Assembly: GCA_016192435.1 (NCBI GenBank)
Contig: JACPUD010000025.1
Coordinates: 1-38,569 of the forward strand
Reading direction: 5' to 3'
Origin: Rhodocyclales bacterium
GTDB lineage: Bacteria > Pseudomonadota > Gammaproteobacteria > Burkholderiales > Rhodocyclaceae
DNA: 38,569 bases
The notes below the pieces were generated by a model. It saw nothing but the letters and a program-made list of their open reading frames with translations, searched no databases and was not told the origin of the DNA. Below, in pieces: positions 8,610-27,767 of this stretch (position 1 is its first letter; each line of letters begins with the position of its first letter). Both the position numbers and the translations under genes were made by a program.

Positions 8610-11075
8610 ATGGCCGCCACAGAATCCTGCTACCACTGCGGCCTGCCGATCCCGGCAGGTGTCGACTTCACGGTCGAGATCGGCGGCCAGCGGCGCGAGA
8701 TGTGCTGCGCCGGCTGCCAGGCGGTGGCGCAGGCGATCGTCGATAACGGCCTGGCCGACTACTACCGGCATCGCGACGCGATGCCGGAAAGCCCGCGCGA
8801 GGCGCTGCCGCAGGTGCTGGCCGAGTTCGGCCTGTTCGATCATCCCGATGTGCAGAAGAACTTCGTGCGCCGGGCCGAGGGCGCCGCGGGCGAACACGAG
8901 CAGGAAGCAGCGCTGATTCTCGAAGGCATCACTTGCGCCGCCTGCGTCTGGCTCAATGAATCGCATGTGCGCCGCCAGCCCGGCGTCACCGCCGTCGACA
9001 TCAACTACACCACGCGCCGGGCGCGGGTGCGCTGGGACGAACGCGTCACCAAGCTTTCGGCCATCCTCGAAGCGATTGCCGCCATCGGTTATCGCGCCCA
9101 TCCCTACGACATCGGGCGCGCCGAGGAACTGGCGCAGAAGGAACGCAAGGCGGCGTTGTGGCGGCTGTTCGTCGCCGGCTTCGGCATGATGCAGGTGATG
9201 ATGTATGCCGTGCCGGTGTATCTGGCCGACGGCGACATGACGCCGGACATCGAGCAACTGATGCGCTGGGCCAGCCTGATCCTGACCTTGCCGGTGATCC
9301 TGTATTCGGCCGCGCCCTTCTTCGTCAGCGCCTGGCGCGACCTGAAGCTGCGCCGCGTCGGCATGGACGTGCCGGTGGCGCTCGGCGTCGGTGCGGCCTT
9401 CGCGGCCAGCGTATGGGCCACGCTGAGCGCAGCGGGCGAGGTGTATTTCGATTCTGTCACCATGTTCGTCTTCTTCCTGCTCACCGGCCGCTATCTGGAA
9501 ATGATGGCCCGGCAGAAAGCCGCGCGCAGCGTCGAGACCCTGGCGCGCGCGATTCCGGCTTTCGCCACCCGTTTGCCCGGATGGCCGTTGTCCACTTCCG
9601 ATATCGCGGGCGAACGCGTTGCCGTGGCCGAGTTGCATGCGGGCGACGCAGTGCAGATCAAGCCCGGCGAGACGGTCCCGGCCGATGGTGTGGTGCTTGA
9701 CGGCGAGAGCGCGGTGGACGAATCGCTGCTGACCGGCGAGAGCCTGCCGGTGCCCAAGCGGGCCGGCGACGCGCTGATCGGCGGCAGCGTGAATACCGCC
9801 AGCCCGCTGGTGATGCGCGTCGAACGCGTCGGCGAGGCGACGCGCGTGGCGGCGATCCAGCGCCTGATGGAACGCGCTGCGGCGGAGAAGCCGCGCCTGG
9901 TGGAAATGGCCGACCGCGTCGCCGGGCGCTTCATCGTCGTCCTGCTGCTGCTGGCGGTGGGAACCGCGCTGGCCTGGTGGTGGATCGATGCCTCGCGCGC
10001 CTTGTGGGTCTTTGTCGCGGTCCTGGTGGTGAGCTGCCCCTGCGCCTTGTCCCTGGCGACGCCGGCGGCCCTGACCGTGGCCACCGGCGCGCTGGCCGCG
10101 CGCGGTGTGCTGGTGACGCGCGGCCATGCGATCGAGGCGCTGGCGCGGGCCGATCGTTTCATTTTCGACAAGACCGGGACTCTGACCGCGGGGCGCATGG
10201 CGCTGGTCGAGGCGATCCCGATTCAGGGCGATGCCGGACGTGCACTTGCTCTGGCGGCCGCGCTCGAACGTGGCTCCGAGCATCCCATCGCGAAGGCTCT
10301 GGCGGCGGGCGCGGCAGCTGCAGGAACGGCAGCGGTCATCGAGGTCGATGGCCTGCGCGCGACCACCGGCGCCGGGGTCGAGGGCACGATAGCGGGCGAC
10401 TTGTGGCGGCTCGGAAACCCCGAGTTCGTCGCCGGCCTGCATGGCCGCGAGGTGCCGGTTGCCGTTCAGGCCATAGTTGGCGCTGGCGACACGGTGATCG
10501 CGCTGGGCAATGCGTCGGGTTGGCAGGCCTTCTTCCGCCTCAGCGATGGTCTGCGCCCCGAGGCGTCCGCCATGGTGGCAAAACTCGCCGCGGCGGGCAT
10601 CAGGCTGTCCATCTTCAGCGGTGATGCGTCGGCCGCCGCATCACGCATCGGCTCCTTGCTCGGCATTGCGGATGCGCGCGGCGGACTCTCGCCGGAGGAC
10701 AAGCATGCGGCGCTCAAGGCACTGCAGGATGCCGGCGAGACGGTCGCCATGGTCGGCGATGGAGTCAATGACGCCCCCGTGCTGGCACAGGCGCAGGTGT
10801 CGATCGCGATGGGCGGCGGCGCCGACCTGGCGCGGGCCAACGCCGATATCGTGCTGCTCGGCAACGATCTTCAGGCCTTGCCGCAAGGACTGGCGCTGGC
10901 GCGGCGCAGCCTGCGCATCGTCAAACAAAACCTGGTGTGGGCCTTCGCCTACAATTTCCTGGCAATCCCCCTGGCCATGGCGGGCTGGGTGACACCCTGG
11001 ATGGCCGGTATCGGCATGTCGGCCAGTTCGCTGCTGGTGGTGCTCAATGCCTTGCGTTTGCAGCGGGAGCAATGA
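8610..11075 (+). CDS. ccoI: CcoI/FixI copper P1B-type ATPase for cbb3 oxidase assembly
   Basis: An 821-residue heavy-metal P-type ATPase of the CcoI/FixI branch, which exports copper across the inner membrane for the cbb3 active site. The N-terminus carries a Cys-rich segment (CYHCG, then CCAGC near residue 33) typical of FixI. It is followed by an HMA domain with GITCAAC (about 107), the TGES actuator motif, the SCPCALSLATP metal-binding helix, DKTGTLT with the phosphorylated Asp, a SEHPIA motif and GDGVNDAP. Eight membrane helices are expected. ATG 8610 is chosen because the Cys-rich domain begins directly after it; the frame stays open upstream but that part overlaps the SDR gene. It overlaps or abuts ccoS at the 3' end. 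Confidence 0.93.
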   Translation: MAATESCYHCGLPIPAGVDFTVEIGGQRREMCCAGCQAVAQAIVDNGLADYYRHRDAMPESPREALPQVLAEFGLFDHPDVQKNFVRRAEGAAGEHEQEAALILEGITCAACVWLNESHVRRQPGVTAVDINYTTRRARVRWDERVTKLSAILEAIAAIGYRAHPYDIGRAEELAQKERKAALWRLFVAGFGMMQVMMYAVPVYLADGDMTPDIEQLMRWASLILTLPVILYSAAPFFVSAWRDLKLRRVGMDVPVALGVGAAFAASVWATLSAAGEVYFDSVTMFVFFLLTGRYLEMMARQKAARSVETLARAIPAFATRLPGWPLSTSDIAGERVAVAELHAGDAVQIKPGETVPADGVVLDGESAVDESLLTGESLPVPKRAGDALIGGSVNTASPLVMRVERVGEATRVAAIQRLMERAAAEKPRLVEMADRVAGRFIVVLLLLAVGTALAWWWIDASRALWVFVAVLVVSCPCALSLATPAALTVATGALAARGVLVTRGHAIEALARADRFIFDKTGTLTAGRMALVEAIPIQGDAGRALALAAALERGSEHPIAKALAAGAAAAGTAAVIEVDGLRATTGAGVEGTIAGDLWRLGNPEFVAGLHGREVPVAVQAIVGAGDTVIALGNASGWQAFFRLSDGLRPEASAMVAKLAAAGIRLSIFSGDASAAASRIGSLLGIADARGGLSPEDKHAALKALQDAGETVAMVGDGVNDAPVLAQAQVSIAMGGGADLARANADIVLLGNDLQALPQGLALARRSLRIVKQNLVWAFAYNFLAIPLAMAGWVTPWMAGIGMSASSLLVVLNALRLQREQ

Positions 11076-11080
11076 CTCGA

Positions 11081-11338
11081 ATGGATATCCTGTATCTGCT
11101 GATTCCGCTTTCCCTGGTGCTGGTCTTCGTGATTGCAGCGGTGTTCTGGTGGTCGTTGAAGAGTGGCCAGTTCGAGGATCTCGAAGGGCCCGGCTACCGC
11201 ATCCTGATGGACGACGACAAGGCCGATCCTGCGCAAGGCGAGGTTTCTGCCGAGGCCAATGCCGGAGAAGAAGCTAATGGCCGTAGCACTAAAGTGCAAA
11301 CCGTTGACTCAGATCAAGGTGCGAGTGTTCACAAGTAA
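11081..11338 (+). CDS. ccoS: CcoS/FixS cbb3 oxidase maturation protein
   Basis: An 85-residue membrane protein. Residues 1-35, MDILYLLIPLSLVLVF onward through VFWWSLKSGQFEDLEGPGYRIL, are a clear match to the CcoS signature of one transmembrane helix followed by a GQFDDL-type motif. CcoS is needed for cofactor insertion into cbb3 oxidase. The acidic and polar tail (about 50-85) is longer than in many CcoS proteins. An ATG at 11072 overlaps the ccoI stop, but the GGGAG at 11065-11069 is spaced better for 11081. The last codons overlap an FNR-type box at 11304-11317, so the gene end doubles as promoter DNA for what follows. Confidence 0.88.
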   Translation: MDILYLLIPLSLVLVFVIAAVFWWSLKSGQFEDLEGPGYRILMDDDKADPAQGEVSAEANAGEEANGRSTKVQTVDSDQGASVHK

Positions 11339-11345
11339 CCATACT
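11304..11345 (+). promoter_or_regulatory. FNR-type box and -10 element inside the ccoS 3' end
   Basis: TTGACTCAGATCAA at 11304-11317 matches nine of ten half-site bases of the FNR consensus TTGAT-N4-ATCAA. A -10-like CATACT lies at 11340-11345. The 22-base gap between box and -10 gives the class II FNR geometry, with the box centred near -41.5 and start near 11352. The only features downstream before the strong terminator are non-coding. Confidence 0.55.
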
Positions 11346-11351
11346 CCGCGT

Positions 11352-11433
11352 GGGTTTTATGGTGACGGCTTCGCGCTGTTGCCCAAAGGCTCTCTGTTGG
11401 GGTTGGGGGTGCGCGCTGCGCACCCTTTTTTTT
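11352..11433 (+). ncRNA. Candidate FNR-activated small RNA
   Basis: This is an inferred transcript of about 82 bases, from the start predicted by the FNR box/-10 pair to the end of the U-run of a strong intrinsic terminator. A first hairpin can form between CCCAA (11382-11386) and TTGGG (11397-11401), leaving a CU-rich loop (AGGCTCTCTG). The terminator stem follows after five bases. No convincing short reading frame with a Shine-Dalgarno is seen. The architecture resembles FNR-controlled riboregulators such as FnrS in enterobacteria and AniS in Neisseria, but no sequence similarity to them is claimed. Confidence 0.42.
11407..11433 (+). terminator. Strong intrinsic terminator
   Basis: GGGTGCGC (11407-11414) pairs perfectly with GCGCACCC (11418-11425) around a GCT loop and is followed by eight T residues (11426-11433). 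It ends transcription from ccoIS and from the FNR-type promoter at 11304-11345. Confidence 0.92.
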
Positions 11434-11492
11434 CATCCCGGCCACTCCGCCGAGGACCACAAAGTCTGCGGATATACTCCAAATCTGCGCCG

Positions 11493-11511
11493 CGCCGGGA
11501 AACACCCGGCG
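11493..11511 (+). other. Hairpin upstream of the Rrf2 gene
   Basis: CGCCGGG (11493-11499) pairs with CCCGGCG (11505-11511) around an AAACA loop. A -10-like TACTAT at 11522-11527 follows, so the dyad sits in the -35 region of a possible rrf2 promoter and could be an operator rather than an RNA structure. Confidence 0.35.
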
Positions 11512-11548
11512 ATCAATTCCATACTATCCATACGGCATATTAGGGCTC

Positions 11549-12040
11549 ATGATCCTATCCCGCACCAGCCAATACGCCATCCAGGCGCTGATCTATATTG
11601 CGACCCAGCCGCGGGGGGTTCCCGTCCTCAACCGCACGGTGGCGCAACATCTCAATGTGCCGCCGGCATACTTGGCGAAGATCATGCAGAATTTGAGCCG
11701 GGGTACCCTGCTCCATTCCTTTCGCGGTCGGCAGGGCGGATTCTGCTTGCGCGACGGCTGCGAAAACACCGACCTGATGCAAATCCTCACTCTGGTCGAG
11801 GGCCCGGGACTGACCGAGAACTGCGTCATCGGACTTAAAATATGCAGCGATGAAACCGCCTGCCCCATGCATGAACAATGGAAGCCGATCAAGACCAGGA
11901 TTGTCGAACTATTGCACCAGCAAACGCTGGAAATGCTCGCGATGGCCGTAAAAAGCGGGAAATACAGGCTGACCGAGCTGCCCGACGCCGCCTTTGCCAT
12001 GCCGCAGATGGCAGTCAGCCGTCTGGCGGGCGGGGAGTAA
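11549..12040 (+). CDS. Rrf2-family regulator with three conserved cysteines
   Basis: A 163-residue Rrf2 protein beginning MILSRTSQYAIQALIYIA, with an N-terminal winged helix (about 1-75, including the FRGRQGGF wing). The three Cys of the family are present in C-VIGLKI-C-SDETA-C (about residues 92-105), so an iron-sulfur cluster is likely. Family members sense cluster status, NO or redox (IscR, NsrR, RsrR); which applies here cannot be told. No isc or suf genes are adjacent. It is separated from the FNR-like gene by two bases, so the two regulators are co-transcribed and probably serve the surrounding oxygen/NO genes. Confidence 0.85.
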   Translation: MILSRTSQYAIQALIYIATQPRGVPVLNRTVAQHLNVPPAYLAKIMQNLSRGTLLHSFRGRQGGFCLRDGCENTDLMQILTLVEGPGLTENCVIGLKICSDETACPMHEQWKPIKTRIVELLHQQTLEMLAMAVKSGKYRLTELPDAAFAMPQMAVSRLAGGE

Positions 12041-12042
12041 TC

Positions 12043-12798
12043 ATGTCCAGCCCGAGTGCTTCGGCTGTCTGCTCGTCTTCGCAACCGGCTTGCGAACCGA
12101 TCACCTGCAACAATTGCGGGATCTATCGGCTCTGCCTGCCCTTGGGCCTCAATCAGGCCGACCTGTCGCTGCTGGACAGCATAGTCAAGCGCAAGGAAGT
12201 CTATAAACGTGGCCAGGTGCTGTTTCGGCCCGGCGAGCGATTCGATTATCTGTATGCGATTCGCAGCGGTTCGGTGAAGACTTATGTCAGCACCGACGAC
12301 GGCCGGGTGCAGATTACCGGCTTTCATATCGCTGGCGAGCTGCTGGGTCTGAGTGCGCTGGCGTCGCGACAGTACAGTTCGGAGGCCAAAGCGCTGGAAA
12401 CCATATCCGTCTGCAAGGTCGAAATAAGTCGCCTGGACGAAATCGCCCAGCAGATTCCCTCGATCCAGTACCAGATGCTGAGAATCATGAGCGGGCAGAT
12501 CCGGCACGACGAGGAGTTGATGCTGCTGCTTGGCAAACGCAGCGCCGAAGAGCGCCTCGCCGAGTATCTGATGGGTCTTTCCAGGCGCTTTGCCAGTCGG
12601 AACTACTCTGGCACGCAATTCCGCTTGAGCATGTCGCGCCTGGATATCGGTAACTACCTCGGCATAGCCGAAGAGACAGTCTGTCGCATCCTCGGGCGAT
12701 TCCAGGAAGACGGACTCATCACCGCTGATCGTCGGCAGGTTTGCCTGAAGGATCTCAAGCGGCTTGGCGCACTGGCCCACTTGGCGGTCGCTGCATAA
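12043..12798 (+). CDS. FNR-like oxygen-sensing regulator with altered recognition helix
   Basis: A 251-residue Crp/Fnr protein. It has the FNR-type cluster ligands C22, C25 and C31 (C-x2-C-x5-C) and a fourth at C124 (SVCKVE), so a 4Fe-4S oxygen sensor is expected. The cNMP-like beta roll is at about 40-130, the dimer helix about 135-165, and the helix-turn-helix about 195-225. The recognition helix reads EETVCR. At the position of Ser212 in E. coli FNR (ETISR) it has Cys214, while E211 and R215 are kept. The start follows a GGGGAG Shine-Dalgarno within the end of the Rrf2 gene. A second, canonical fnr lies at 26963-27721, so this is a paralog that may have shifted DNA specificity. Confidence 0.88.
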   Translation: MSSPSASAVCSSSQPACEPITCNNCGIYRLCLPLGLNQADLSLLDSIVKRKEVYKRGQVLFRPGERFDYLYAIRSGSVKTYVSTDDGRVQITGFHIAGELLGLSALASRQYSSEAKALETISVCKVEISRLDEIAQQIPSIQYQMLRIMSGQIRHDEELMLLLGKRSAEERLAEYLMGLSRRFASRNYSGTQFRLSMSRLDIGNYLGIAEETVCRILGRFQEDGLITADRRQVCLKDLKRLGALAHLAVAA

Positions 12799-12866
12799 GG
12801 CTCCGCCACTGGATTCGGGCTCGATCTTGGCCCGGTTGTTGTGGGCGTATTGCTTAAGCACTAAGG

Positions 12867-12956
12867 TTGACCTGCGTCAGCTTTTCCAGTGCTTCCCTGG
12901 ACATTGAGGTTGACGTCGGTCAGTAAACCAGCCGACGTCTATTGATATGCTATAAA
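12867..12956 (+). promoter_or_regulatory. Twin variant FNR-like boxes and extended -10 before bacteriohemerythrin
   Basis: Two copies of GGTTGAC-N4-GTCAG have their boxes at 12867-12880 and 12910-12923, exactly 43 bases apart. The second overlaps an inverted repeat GACGTCGG (12912-12919) / CCGACGTC (12932-12939). An extended -10, TGCTATAAA, ends at 12956; TATGCT at 12946-12951 would instead place the second box at about -41.5. Confidence 0.45.
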
Positions 12957-12997
12957 AAGACAAACGTATCTGGATATCTTTAGATTAGGAGCTAGCC

Positions 12998-13468
12998 ATG
13001 GAAACTCTATTTACTTGGTCGGATGACCTCAGCGTCGGCATCCAGGAGATAGACGAGCAACATAAGGAATTGGTTAAGCTGTTGAACCGCCTGCACGAAG
13101 CGGTAGTTTCTCATCATGGATCTACTGCGTGCAGTGAGATTTTGAATCAGCTGGCTGAATACACGCGGGTGCATTTCATTGTCGAAGAAAGCCTGATGCG
13201 GATTCTTCACTACCCTGAATTCGAACAGCACAAGGCCGAGCACGAAGCATTGGTCGCGCAGGTCGTGGCTCTGCAACAGAAGCTGGCTGCCGGGCAGGCC
13301 ACGATCACCTTCGAACTGCTGCATTTTCTCAAGGTCTGGCTGACCAAGCATATCGCCGGTAGCGACCGCCGCTATGCCGGCTTCTTCCTCGAAAGAGGCA
13401 TGTCGCCGGACTGGTCCCATAACGTCGAACAGACAATGGCGAAGAAATGGTCATGGAAATTCTGGTGA
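12998..13468 (+). CDS. Bacteriohemerythrin
   Basis: A 156-residue single-domain hemerythrin. The diiron ligands are visible in order: H22 (IDEQH), H59 and E63 (HFIVEE), H78 and H82 (HKAEH), then H and D in TKHIAGSD near 118-123. The motif is complete, so reversible O2 (or NO) binding in the cytoplasm is expected. In methanotrophs bacteriohemerythrins deliver oxygen; its position directly before ccoN suggests oxygen supply to or buffering for the cbb3 oxidase. The C-terminal extension ending KKWSWKFW is basic and aromatic and could touch the membrane. The start ATG follows an AGGAG at 12989-12993. Confidence 0.93.
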   Translation: METLFTWSDDLSVGIQEIDEQHKELVKLLNRLHEAVVSHHGSTACSEILNQLAEYTRVHFIVEESLMRILHYPEFEQHKAEHEALVAQVVALQQKLAAGQATITFELLHFLKVWLTKHIAGSDRRYAGFFLERGMSPDWSHNVEQTMAKKWSWKFW

Positions 13469-13647: not shown

Positions 13648-13688
13648 TTGACCTGTATCAAACTACTCTAATATTTCGCGTGTAATCT
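13648..13688 (+). promoter_or_regulatory. FNR-activated promoter of ccoNOQP
   Basis: TTGACCTGTATCAA at 13648-13661 and TAATCT at 13683-13688 are 21 bases apart, the class II FNR layout with a start near 13695. The 72-base leader ends in GAGGTG eight bases before the ccoN ATG. The rest of 13469-13647 holds no gene I can support; its AT-rich end includes a TTGAT half-site near 13612. Confidence 0.75.
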
Positions 13689-13767: not shown

Positions 13768-15189
13768 ATGCAATCGCAAGCGACTTACAACTACAAAGTC
13801 GTGCGCCAGTTCGCTGTGATGACCGTAATCTGGGGCATCGTCGGCATGCTGGTCGGCGTCATCATTGCGGCCCAATTGGTCTGGCCGGAGTTGAATGTGC
13901 ACGAGTGGTTGAGCTACGGCCGCTTGCGCCCGTTGCACACCAATGCGGTTATTTTTGCTTTTGGCGGCTGCGCACTGTTTGCCACGTCGTATTTTGCAGT
14001 GCAGCGAACCAGCCATGCCCCGCTGTTTGCGCCGGGGCTGGCGGCGTTTACGTTCTGGGGTTGGCAACTGATCATCGTGCTTGCCGCCGTTTCCCTGCCG
14101 CTGGGGCTAACCTCGGGCAAGGAATATGCGGAACTCGAATGGCCGATCGACATCCTGATCACTCTGGTCTGGGTGTCCTATGCCGTGGTGTTTTTCGGCA
14201 CCATCGCGAAGCGCACGATTTCGCACATCTATGTCGCGAACTGGTTCTTCGGTGGATTCATCCTGACCGTTGCCGTGCTGCACCTGGTGAATAGCGCCGC
14301 GATTCCGGTGACGCTGTTCAAGTCCTACTCCGCCTACGCGGGGGTGCAGGATGCGATGGTGCAATGGTGGTACGGCCACAACGCGGTGGGCTTCTTCCTT
14401 ACCGCAGGCTTCCTCGGCATGATGTACTACTTCGTGCCGAAGCAGGCCGGGCGTCCGGTATATTCCTACCGCCTGTCGGTGGTGCACTTCTGGGCGCTGA
14501 TCTTCACCTACATGTGGGCGGGTCCTCACCACCTGCATTTCACGGCTTTGCCCGACTGGACTCAGAGCGTGGGCATGATCTTTTCGCTGATCCTGTTGGC
14601 ACCTTCCTGGGGCGGCATGATCAACGGCATCATGACTCTGTCGGGCGCCTGGCACAAACTGCGCGACGATCCGATCCTGAAGTTCATGATCACCTCGCTG
14701 TCCTTCTACGGCATGTCGACCTTCGAAGGCCCGATGATGTCGATCAAGACGGTCAATGCGCTGTCCCACTACACCGACTGGACCGTGGGCCATGTGCATT
14801 CCGGCGCCCTGGGCTGGGTGGCGATGATTTCCATCGGCTCGATCTACTATCTGTTGCCGCGCCTGTTCGGCAAGCCTGAGATGGCCTCGAAGAAGCTGAT
14901 CGAAGTGCACTTCTGGGTGGCCACCATCGGCGTCGTGCTCTACATCGCCTCGATGTGGATCGCGGGAGTGATGCAGGGCCTGATGTGGCGCGCAACTAAC
15001 GTCGATGGCACGCTGACCTATTCCTTCGTCGAGTCGGTCAAGGCGACCTACCCGTTCTGGACCATACGTCTGCTGGGCGGCCTGCTGTTCCTTTCCGGCA
15101 TGCTGATCATGGCCTACAACATGTTCCTGACCATGGCGGGGGGCAAGGCGGTCAATGCGCCGGTACTCGCACCCGCAGCGGCCCACTAA
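13768..15189 (+). CDS. ccoN: cbb3-type cytochrome c oxidase subunit I
   Basis: A 473-residue polytopic protein, the catalytic subunit that reduces O2 at a heme b3-CuB centre in the inner membrane. Visible ligands are H57 ([10 protein letters not shown], low-spin heme), H204 (WWYGHNAVG), H254 and H255 (GPHHLHF) for CuB, and H342 and H344 ([10 protein letters not shown]) for the hemes. Tyr248 (TYMWAGPHH) is the cbb3-type active-site tyrosine. Length is normal for the family. It is the first gene of ccoNOQP, behind an FNR-type promoter, as expected for a high-affinity microaerobic oxidase. Confidence 0.98.
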
Positions 15190-20628: not shown

Positions 20629-20669
20629 ATCGTAGCGTACTAAAGAAGGGCAGCGTTGATCAAGATCAA
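20629..20669 (-). promoter_or_regulatory. Perfect FNR box with promoter for usp-hemerythrin
   Basis: TTGATCAAGATCAA at 20656-20669 matches all ten specified bases of the FNR consensus. On the minus strand TACGAT (20634-20629) lies 21 bases from the box, the class II layout. The same box could also affect phaC on the plus strand, but no good -10 stands at the right distance on that side. Confidence 0.78.
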
Positions 20670-22590: not shown

Positions 22591-22632
22591 TTGATTGCGG
22601 TCAATGTCTCACGCTAGGGCAACACCCAGAAT
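22591..22632 (+). promoter_or_regulatory. FNR/DNR-type promoter of the hemerythrin-DUF2249 operon
   Basis: TTGATTGCGGTCAA at 22591-22604 matches nine of ten half-site bases, and CAGAAT at 22627-22632 lies 22 bases after it, the class II geometry. The start would be near 22639, leaving a short leader before ATG 22662. No strong terminator is seen between phaC and this promoter. Confidence 0.62.
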
Positions 22633-27753: not shown

Positions 27754-27767
27754 TTGATATTTATCAA
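27754..27767. promoter_or_regulatory. Perfect FNR box between fnr and hemN
   Basis: TTGATATTTATCAA matches all ten consensus bases and lies 33 bases from the fnr start and 80 from the hemN start. The nearest -10-like element for hemN is TATAGA at 27795-27800, five bases further than the class II distance. The box may therefore act differently on hemN, or repress fnr. Confidence 0.8.

Follow-up and report, generated by a model that had tools for sequence, protein, structure and literature searches.

FnrS of Escherichia coli, whose promoter is FNR-dependent and for which Rfam contains a model, appears, together with AniS of Neisseria, to be the functionally closest system to the small RNA described here. 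Nearly all FnrS targets are reported as negative, sodA and sodB included, and rseA is the first positive target reported (PMC8595263). AniS is described as a small RNA made under oxygen limitation by the betaproteobacterium Neisseria meningitidis, with a gonococcal homologue that has been named FnrS (PMC4176332). A further point of comparison is S17/bdhR1 of Bordetella and Burkholderia: it has a 27-nt stretch that stays unchanged in various Betaproteobacteria, and it acts on targets at their ribosome-binding regions; in Bordetella pertussis it adjoins coq7, and its short form is processed and has a C/U-rich 5' end (PMC11722255).

Here we analyse a 38,569-nt stretch of DNA from a Rhodocyclales bacterium (GCA_016192435.1, contig JACPUD010000025.1; the window), which very probably encodes, with a promoter set in the 3' end of ccoS, a free-standing, FNR-activated, trans-acting base-pairing repressor sRNA that is FnrS/AniS-like and forms a separate family. 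Among the papers listed by searches of the open-licence PMC literature there is none on this RNA, which we call ccoS-RNA. With FnrS it would share the logic of an FNR-linked sRNA with mostly negative targets; it differs from FnrS in having no Rfam match at cut-off, in its locus (ccoS/ccoN) and in using a single long, G-rich stretch for recognition, to which up to 19-21 bases are complementary. FnrS is absent from the seven Rfam matches returned for 11250-11480 at E up to 10, and the window and 18 homologous loci match no Rfam sRNA family at the gathering cut-off. Among the scores below cut-off, SorY and AniS are nearest in kind. AniS (RF02274; 16.3 bits against a gathering cut-off of 50, E = 1.7) resembles ccoS-RNA in its terminator with a T run, but its printed consensus lacks the recognition stretch. 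SorY (RF02651; 23.5 bits against a cut-off of 111, E = 0.0064) is of similar length, likewise has a linker flanked by two hairpins, shares a short CUGUUG and ends in a U tail; its role, going by the Rfam name alone, is in the response to singlet oxygen, and host and promoter type differ. With S17/bdhR1, ccoS-RNA has in common an invariant betaproteobacterial sRNA stretch and, by prediction, targets at ribosome-binding regions; compared through the RF02278 model and its description rather than through the sequence letters of S17, it gives no match at 11250-11480 up to E = 10 and none at the gathering cut-off in the 18 homologous loci, Ca. Desulfobacillus included. Membership of a known Rfam family was therefore rejected, and ccoS-RNA should work like FnrS and AniS but belong to neither sequence family.

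Results

A predicted FNR promoter within the end of ccoS

The earlier note on this DNA had claimed a near-consensus FNR box 22 nt before a CATACT hexamer, in a promoter embedded in the coding end of ccoS. Direct reading confirms both elements (Table 1) and places the box over the last ccoS codons, the stop codon being 11336-11338; the host gene is identified by its FixS domain. The +1 near 11352 is deduced from class II FNR geometry and is thus a predicted start. Scanning the window for FNR-like boxes with at most one mismatch gives 14, against 2.2 expected, and five boxes are exact, that of the sRNA among them. The four other exact FNR-type boxes lie at 13648-13661, 20656-20669, 22591-22604 and 27754-27767, and because of them the window has the appearance of an island under FNR control that surrounds the cbb3 oxidase. 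Since the first of these precedes ccoN, ccoN need not use the sRNA promoter. The Crp/FNR-family gene downstream likely encodes the FNR that would act on the sRNA box.

Table 1. Features of the ccoS-RNA locus, in positions of the window.
Feature	Position	Strand	Basis or remark
ccoS, cbb3 oxidase maturation protein (FixS domain)	11081..11338	+	promoter host; final gene ahead of the RNA
FNR box TTGACTCAGATCAA	11304..11317	+	centred at -41.5, within the 3' end of ccoS; read from the sequence, conserved in the genus alignment
-10 element CATACT	11340..11345	+	22 nt past the FNR box; sequence, alignment and wider locus set
Predicted small RNA, about 82 nt	11352..11433	+	start from class II geometry, end from the T run
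5' hairpin, sequence variable	11352..11392	+	fold; 13 genus sequences show two pairs with both sides changed
Invariant target-recognition stretch CTCTCTGTTGGGGTTGGGG	11390..11408	+	mostly inter-hairpin linker; last bases enter the terminator stem
Intrinsic terminator	11405..11433	+	stem 11405-11427, T8 11426-11433
Rrf2-type regulator gene	11549..12040	+	next gene 3'; past the terminator, outside the RNA
Crp/FNR-family regulator gene (cNMP_binding + HTH_Crp_2)	12043..12798	+	start codon chosen by us
Separate FNR box upstream of ccoN	13648..13661	+	motif scan
ccoN, COX1 domain	13768-15189		domain match

A short RNA predicted to end at an intrinsic terminator

The GC stem with eight T residues that had been proposed to end a short non-coding RNA is indeed present, and has the most pairs of the seven terminator-like sites in 10000-13000 (shuffle mean 2.0). 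Folding 11352-11433 gives -36.1 kcal/mol (z = -2.67) and a 5' hairpin, a linker and the terminator. The hairpin loop said in the earlier note to expose CUCUCU does not appear in this fold, which puts the first of these bases in the closing of the 5' hairpin and the rest in the inter-hairpin linker; the GGGG part of that linker is predicted to be, on average, poorly accessible (mean unpaired 0.18-0.42). In 13 of the 28 genus loci (the + strand ones, with L002 and L028 set aside), pairing is retained in 99.4% of cells and two double-sided changes fall in the 5' hairpin, giving modest support to the sRNA structure; covariation is weak, 20-27 of 500 shuffles being equally high. Across 114 loci of the wider set described below, the predicted RNA has a median length of 95 nt (range 64-147 nt). 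A small protein gene was considered and rejected: 112 of the 114 loci have no complete frame of at least 20 codons inside the predicted RNA, a count that covers frames complete within the RNA and not those extending past its end, and the loss of one base from the 5' hairpin in four loci (L024, L026, L027, L028) also counts against it. The feature thus reads as a putative short RNA that would end at an intrinsic terminator.

Conservation within and beyond the family

A BLAST search with 11290-11450 recovers the element from 28 of the 31 genomes of the genus, counting that of the window (G008, G026 and G028 give no match to it), and from two of six genomes of other genera of the family; G052 gives a 22-base match (E = 0.009) and no longer one. 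The alignment, which took in 29 of the 30 fetched loci (L030 stands outside it), shows the box, the -10, the 5' GGGTTTTATGG (nearly), CTCTCTGTTGGGGTT and the terminator conserved among the genus loci, with variable sequence between them; the -10 reads CATACT, and CATAAT or GATAAT in a few loci. All 28 genus loci, which were found by BLAST and so independently of any pattern, keep CTCTCTGTTGGGGTT unchanged. Loss of the box, the spacing or the terminator in relatives, named in advance as a result that would speak against the sRNA, was looked for and did not occur.

An exact search of 84,980 species genomes with a 22-base core pattern finds at least 118 contigs, some of them from genomes already in the BLAST set. 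Among the matches listed, 62 of the 80 that are named carry Rhodocyclales names, and the names include Azoarcus, Thauera, Azonexus, Dechloromonas, Zoogloea, Aromatoleum, Uliginosibacterium, Sulfuritalea, Accumulibacter and related bins; most of the remaining named matches are labelled more broadly, for instance as Betaproteobacteria. Of 300 genomes drawn evenly from the order, 11 match: all nine same-family genomes and two others. Two loci from other families of the order (L031 and L041; f3 and f32) have the same core, the terminator and a TTGAT-type box, and the RNA may accordingly extend past the family of the window or have been transferred. UCUCUGUUGGGGUU(R)GGGG is constant across the loci found, a constancy partly imposed by the search pattern, and the 5' part is variable. 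In L359, L360, L363 and L364 the stem reads GGGGGCGC, and the other arm is changed to match. In the first two of these, from one genus, the box lies so near that +1 falls at the recognition stretch; such a form would be a minimal RNA, recognition stretch plus terminator alone. A plasmid search with 11081-12050 gives two short matches, both in the ccoS part, and no viral contigs with ccoS were found.

In the 116 loci that have at least 150 nt upstream, an FNR box matching at least 8 of 10 half-site positions is found 114 times (L092 and L117 have none; in L109 and L129 the sequence stops too soon for a box to be judged), against 546 of 9913 random windows drawn from the same contigs (5.5%). The best -10 stands 21-22 nt past the box in about 101 of the 114 loci; hexamers matching at 5 of 6 positions or better occur at 21-23 nt in 85 of them and at 16-18 or 27-29 nt in none. 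The sRNA would therefore seem to have its own promoter, with the FNR box in an activating position.

This bears on the view that the element is simply the terminator, or 3' end, of the cco maturation operon, whose last gene is ccoS, with the RNA a by-product and the FNR-like box a chance occurrence or a relic. The window scan finds no other terminator-like site between ccoS and the sRNA terminator, so that the stem probably also ends ccoS transcripts, and ccoS lies within 600 nt upstream of the RNA in 109 of the 118 listed loci; a terminator alone, however, would not preserve the box, the -10 spacing and a recognition stretch lying outside the stem, and it leaves the conserved complementary sites in other genes (see below) unexplained. 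We consider this view very improbable, and in its pure form the conserved promoter and the paired sites elsewhere rule it out.

Neighbourhood and independence from ccoN

Another reading is an attenuated 5' leader, which would belong to rrf2-fnr in the window and to ccoN elsewhere. The next gene is on the same strand, and ccoN lies within 1500 nt downstream in 97 of the 118 listed loci, starting at a median of 188 nt past the terminator; yet in 94 of these 97 a second FNR box stands between the RNA terminator and ccoN, and the RNA therefore looks autonomous rather than a leader. The common order is thus ccoS - [FNR box, RNA, terminator] - [FNR box] - ccoN. The downstream gene moreover varies while the RNA is constant, rrf2 being matched in 6, fnr in 7 and hemerythrin in 3 of the 118 loci (all such neighbour counts are lower bounds, some loci stopping at contig edges), and the conserved part of the RNA pairs with distant genes. 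A leader has, in our judgement, a marginally smaller probability still than the operon terminator; as leader specifically of ccoN or rrf2, the second boxes and the rarity of rrf2 rule it out, and the free-standing promoter of the earlier note holds. In the window, the rrf2, fnr-like and hemerythrin genes (11549-13465) separate the sRNA from ccoN; because ccoN directly follows the sRNA in most relatives examined, these three genes seem to reflect an insertion or rearrangement specific to the lineage.

Complementarity to translation initiation regions

Shine-Dalgarno regions complementary to the invariant CUCUCUGUUGGGGUU(R)GGGG are found at DsrC-like genes, at Lipoprotein_15 genes and, less widely, at boxB genes. 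The earlier proposal that a CU-rich part could pair with ribosome-binding sites was thus right in kind; its extent was too short, the true conserved recognition stretch being CUCUCUGUUGGGGUU plus GGGG rather than CUCUCU, and the sites found pair with the longer CUCUCUGUUGGGGUUGGGG stretch. First searches for complements near start codons gave scattered matches, among which DsrC-like proteins recurred in two genera. Of 150 family genomes, 61 have the exact 12-mer CCCCAACCCCAA placed 4-22 nt before an ATG, and 5 have a control matched to it in dinucleotides. Once rows antisense to the sRNA (13 of 85; 10 sequence-confirmed, 3 by motif) and second start codons of one site are removed, 72 rows in 53 genomes are left. 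A Shine-Dalgarno-like sequence accompanies 39 of these 72 (0.26 per genome), against 9 of 55 rows (0.031 per genome) in 291 other-family genomes of the order, a comparison in which rows of nine same-family genomes and second start codons were removed from the outgroup count and a completeness filter (80%) applied to the family count alone. About half of the 12-mer rows, those without such a sequence, may be chance. The short complement CCCAACRGRGR before ATG is found in 53 of 81 genomes and is rarer than its permuted control (67 of 81), so only the longer pairing is supported. The window itself has no target-core-like site (12 bases, at most two mismatches) except the antisense of the RNA.

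Pairing at individual sites was compared with 200 dinucleotide shuffles per site, at 30 DsrC family, 30 Lipoprotein_15 and 18 BoxB loci among the matches listed, these families having been picked because some members carry the site. In the DsrC-like group, at most 2 of 200 shuffles pair as strongly at 14 of the 16 best-matching loci, from nine genera, as compared with 1 of 14 among more distant DsrC paralogues, the boundary between the two having been set after the data were seen. The ribosome-binding region of the DsrC-like gene is complementary to the whole invariant stretch, with 19 of 19 bases in L281; the site in the window's own genome, CCCCAACCCCCACAGAGAG, has one mismatch. That gene (L416, 5614-5943) has a divergent 2-oxoacid:ferredoxin oxidoreductase-type pair on one side and a Lon-like protease gene on the other. 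The same threshold is reached at 15 of 30 Lipoprotein_15 loci and 5 of 18 BoxB loci, the other 15 and 13 being not significant. Two weak second BLAST matches of the RNA query correspond to ribosome-binding regions of Lipoprotein_15 genes in which 21 of 22 bases are complementary; this confirmation of the pairing was unplanned. Complementarity to the translation initiation regions of other genes is thus a conserved property of the feature.

Further candidate targets are numerous and thinly spread. The 12-mer sites of the window's own genome include those at Lipoprotein_15 and boxB; across genomes, sites found in one to four genomes each lie at Lipoprotein_15, boxB, YceI, azoreductase-like flavodoxins, thiol peroxidase, AhpC-type peroxiredoxin, Cu/Zn superoxide dismutase, pirin, phasin, glyoxalase-fold proteins, nifB and others, the families beyond DsrC-like, Lipoprotein_15 and BoxB resting on one to three genomes each. 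Shorter patterns added PobA and a ferredoxin-reductase-like gene, and DksA and a glutathione S-transferase are single-genome matches. The names BoxB, PobA, Tpx, azoreductase and NifB are our presumed identifications; the computed basis is Pfam domains, and for BoxB the PaaA_PaaC match is below cut-off.

The 12-nt target core stands just before the start of nifB in three genomes (L341, L353, L369), and this site does not fit a simple shut-down of aerobic functions by an anaerobic repressor. It lends something to the idea that a real FNR-driven sRNA acts otherwise, by activating some targets or sequestering a protein, with Shine-Dalgarno pairing minor: a nitrogenase-assembly gene is no obvious target for anaerobic repression, and FnrS has a reported positive target in rseA (PMC8595263). 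The sites found nevertheless overlap or abut the Shine-Dalgarno sequence, which is the classic geometry of repression, and we regard this other mode of action as unlikely, if a little less so than either a terminator or a leader.

Discussion

The FNR-controlled small RNA proposed in the earlier note is supported by the conserved box, spacing and terminator and by the separate box of ccoN, and our preferred reading is a repressor that acts in trans by base pairing. In such a mechanism FNR would bind its box at -41.5 when oxygen is lacking, and transcription would begin near 11352, in the ccoS-rrf2 junction (in most relatives examined, in the ccoS-ccoN junction), and stop some 82 nt further on at the intrinsic terminator, leaving a U8 tail. 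That tail is compatible with Hfq binding, and the RNA may depend on Hfq as well as on FNR. The linker, CUCUCUGUUGGGGUU(R)GGGG, would pair with CCCCAACCCCAAC-purine sites lying across or directly beside the Shine-Dalgarno sequence of the target, and the pairing would block ribosome binding and lower target expression, making repression the probable sign of regulation. The best-supported putative targets are the DsrC-like and Lipoprotein_15 genes, then boxB in part of the family. The thinly spread sites at peroxiredoxin, thiol peroxidase, Cu/Zn superoxide dismutase, azoreductase-like flavoproteins and PobA point to oxygen-linked functions being turned off in the manner of FnrS.

A broader idea, on which we are evenly balanced, is that across the Rhodocyclales a single invariant RNA word of about 19 nt, under FNR control at ccoS/ccoN, is read by many mRNAs with a CCCCAACCCCAAC-Shine-Dalgarno box and serves as a post-transcriptional oxygen switch. 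On turning anoxic, denitrifiers, perchlorate reducers and phosphorus accumulators would thereby silence DsrC-like sulfur/redox proteins, their defences against peroxide and superoxide, and ring cleavage that depends on oxygen (BoxB, PobA).

The comparable FNR-linked sRNAs are FnrS and AniS, beside which ccoS-RNA would be a separate family; the lineage in which it is conserved (Azoarcus, Thauera, Dechloromonas, Accumulibacter and others) comprises denitrifiers, degraders of aromatic compounds and bacteria of wastewater. Its candidate targets are concrete and conserved, meaning that the mechanism is directly testable. If the reading is true, a post-transcriptional layer would be added to the choice between aerobic and anaerobic metabolism, including in some lineages the oxygen-dependent benzoyl-CoA route, and CCCCAACCCCAAC adjoining a Shine-Dalgarno sequence would become a rule for spotting targets in the genomes of this group.
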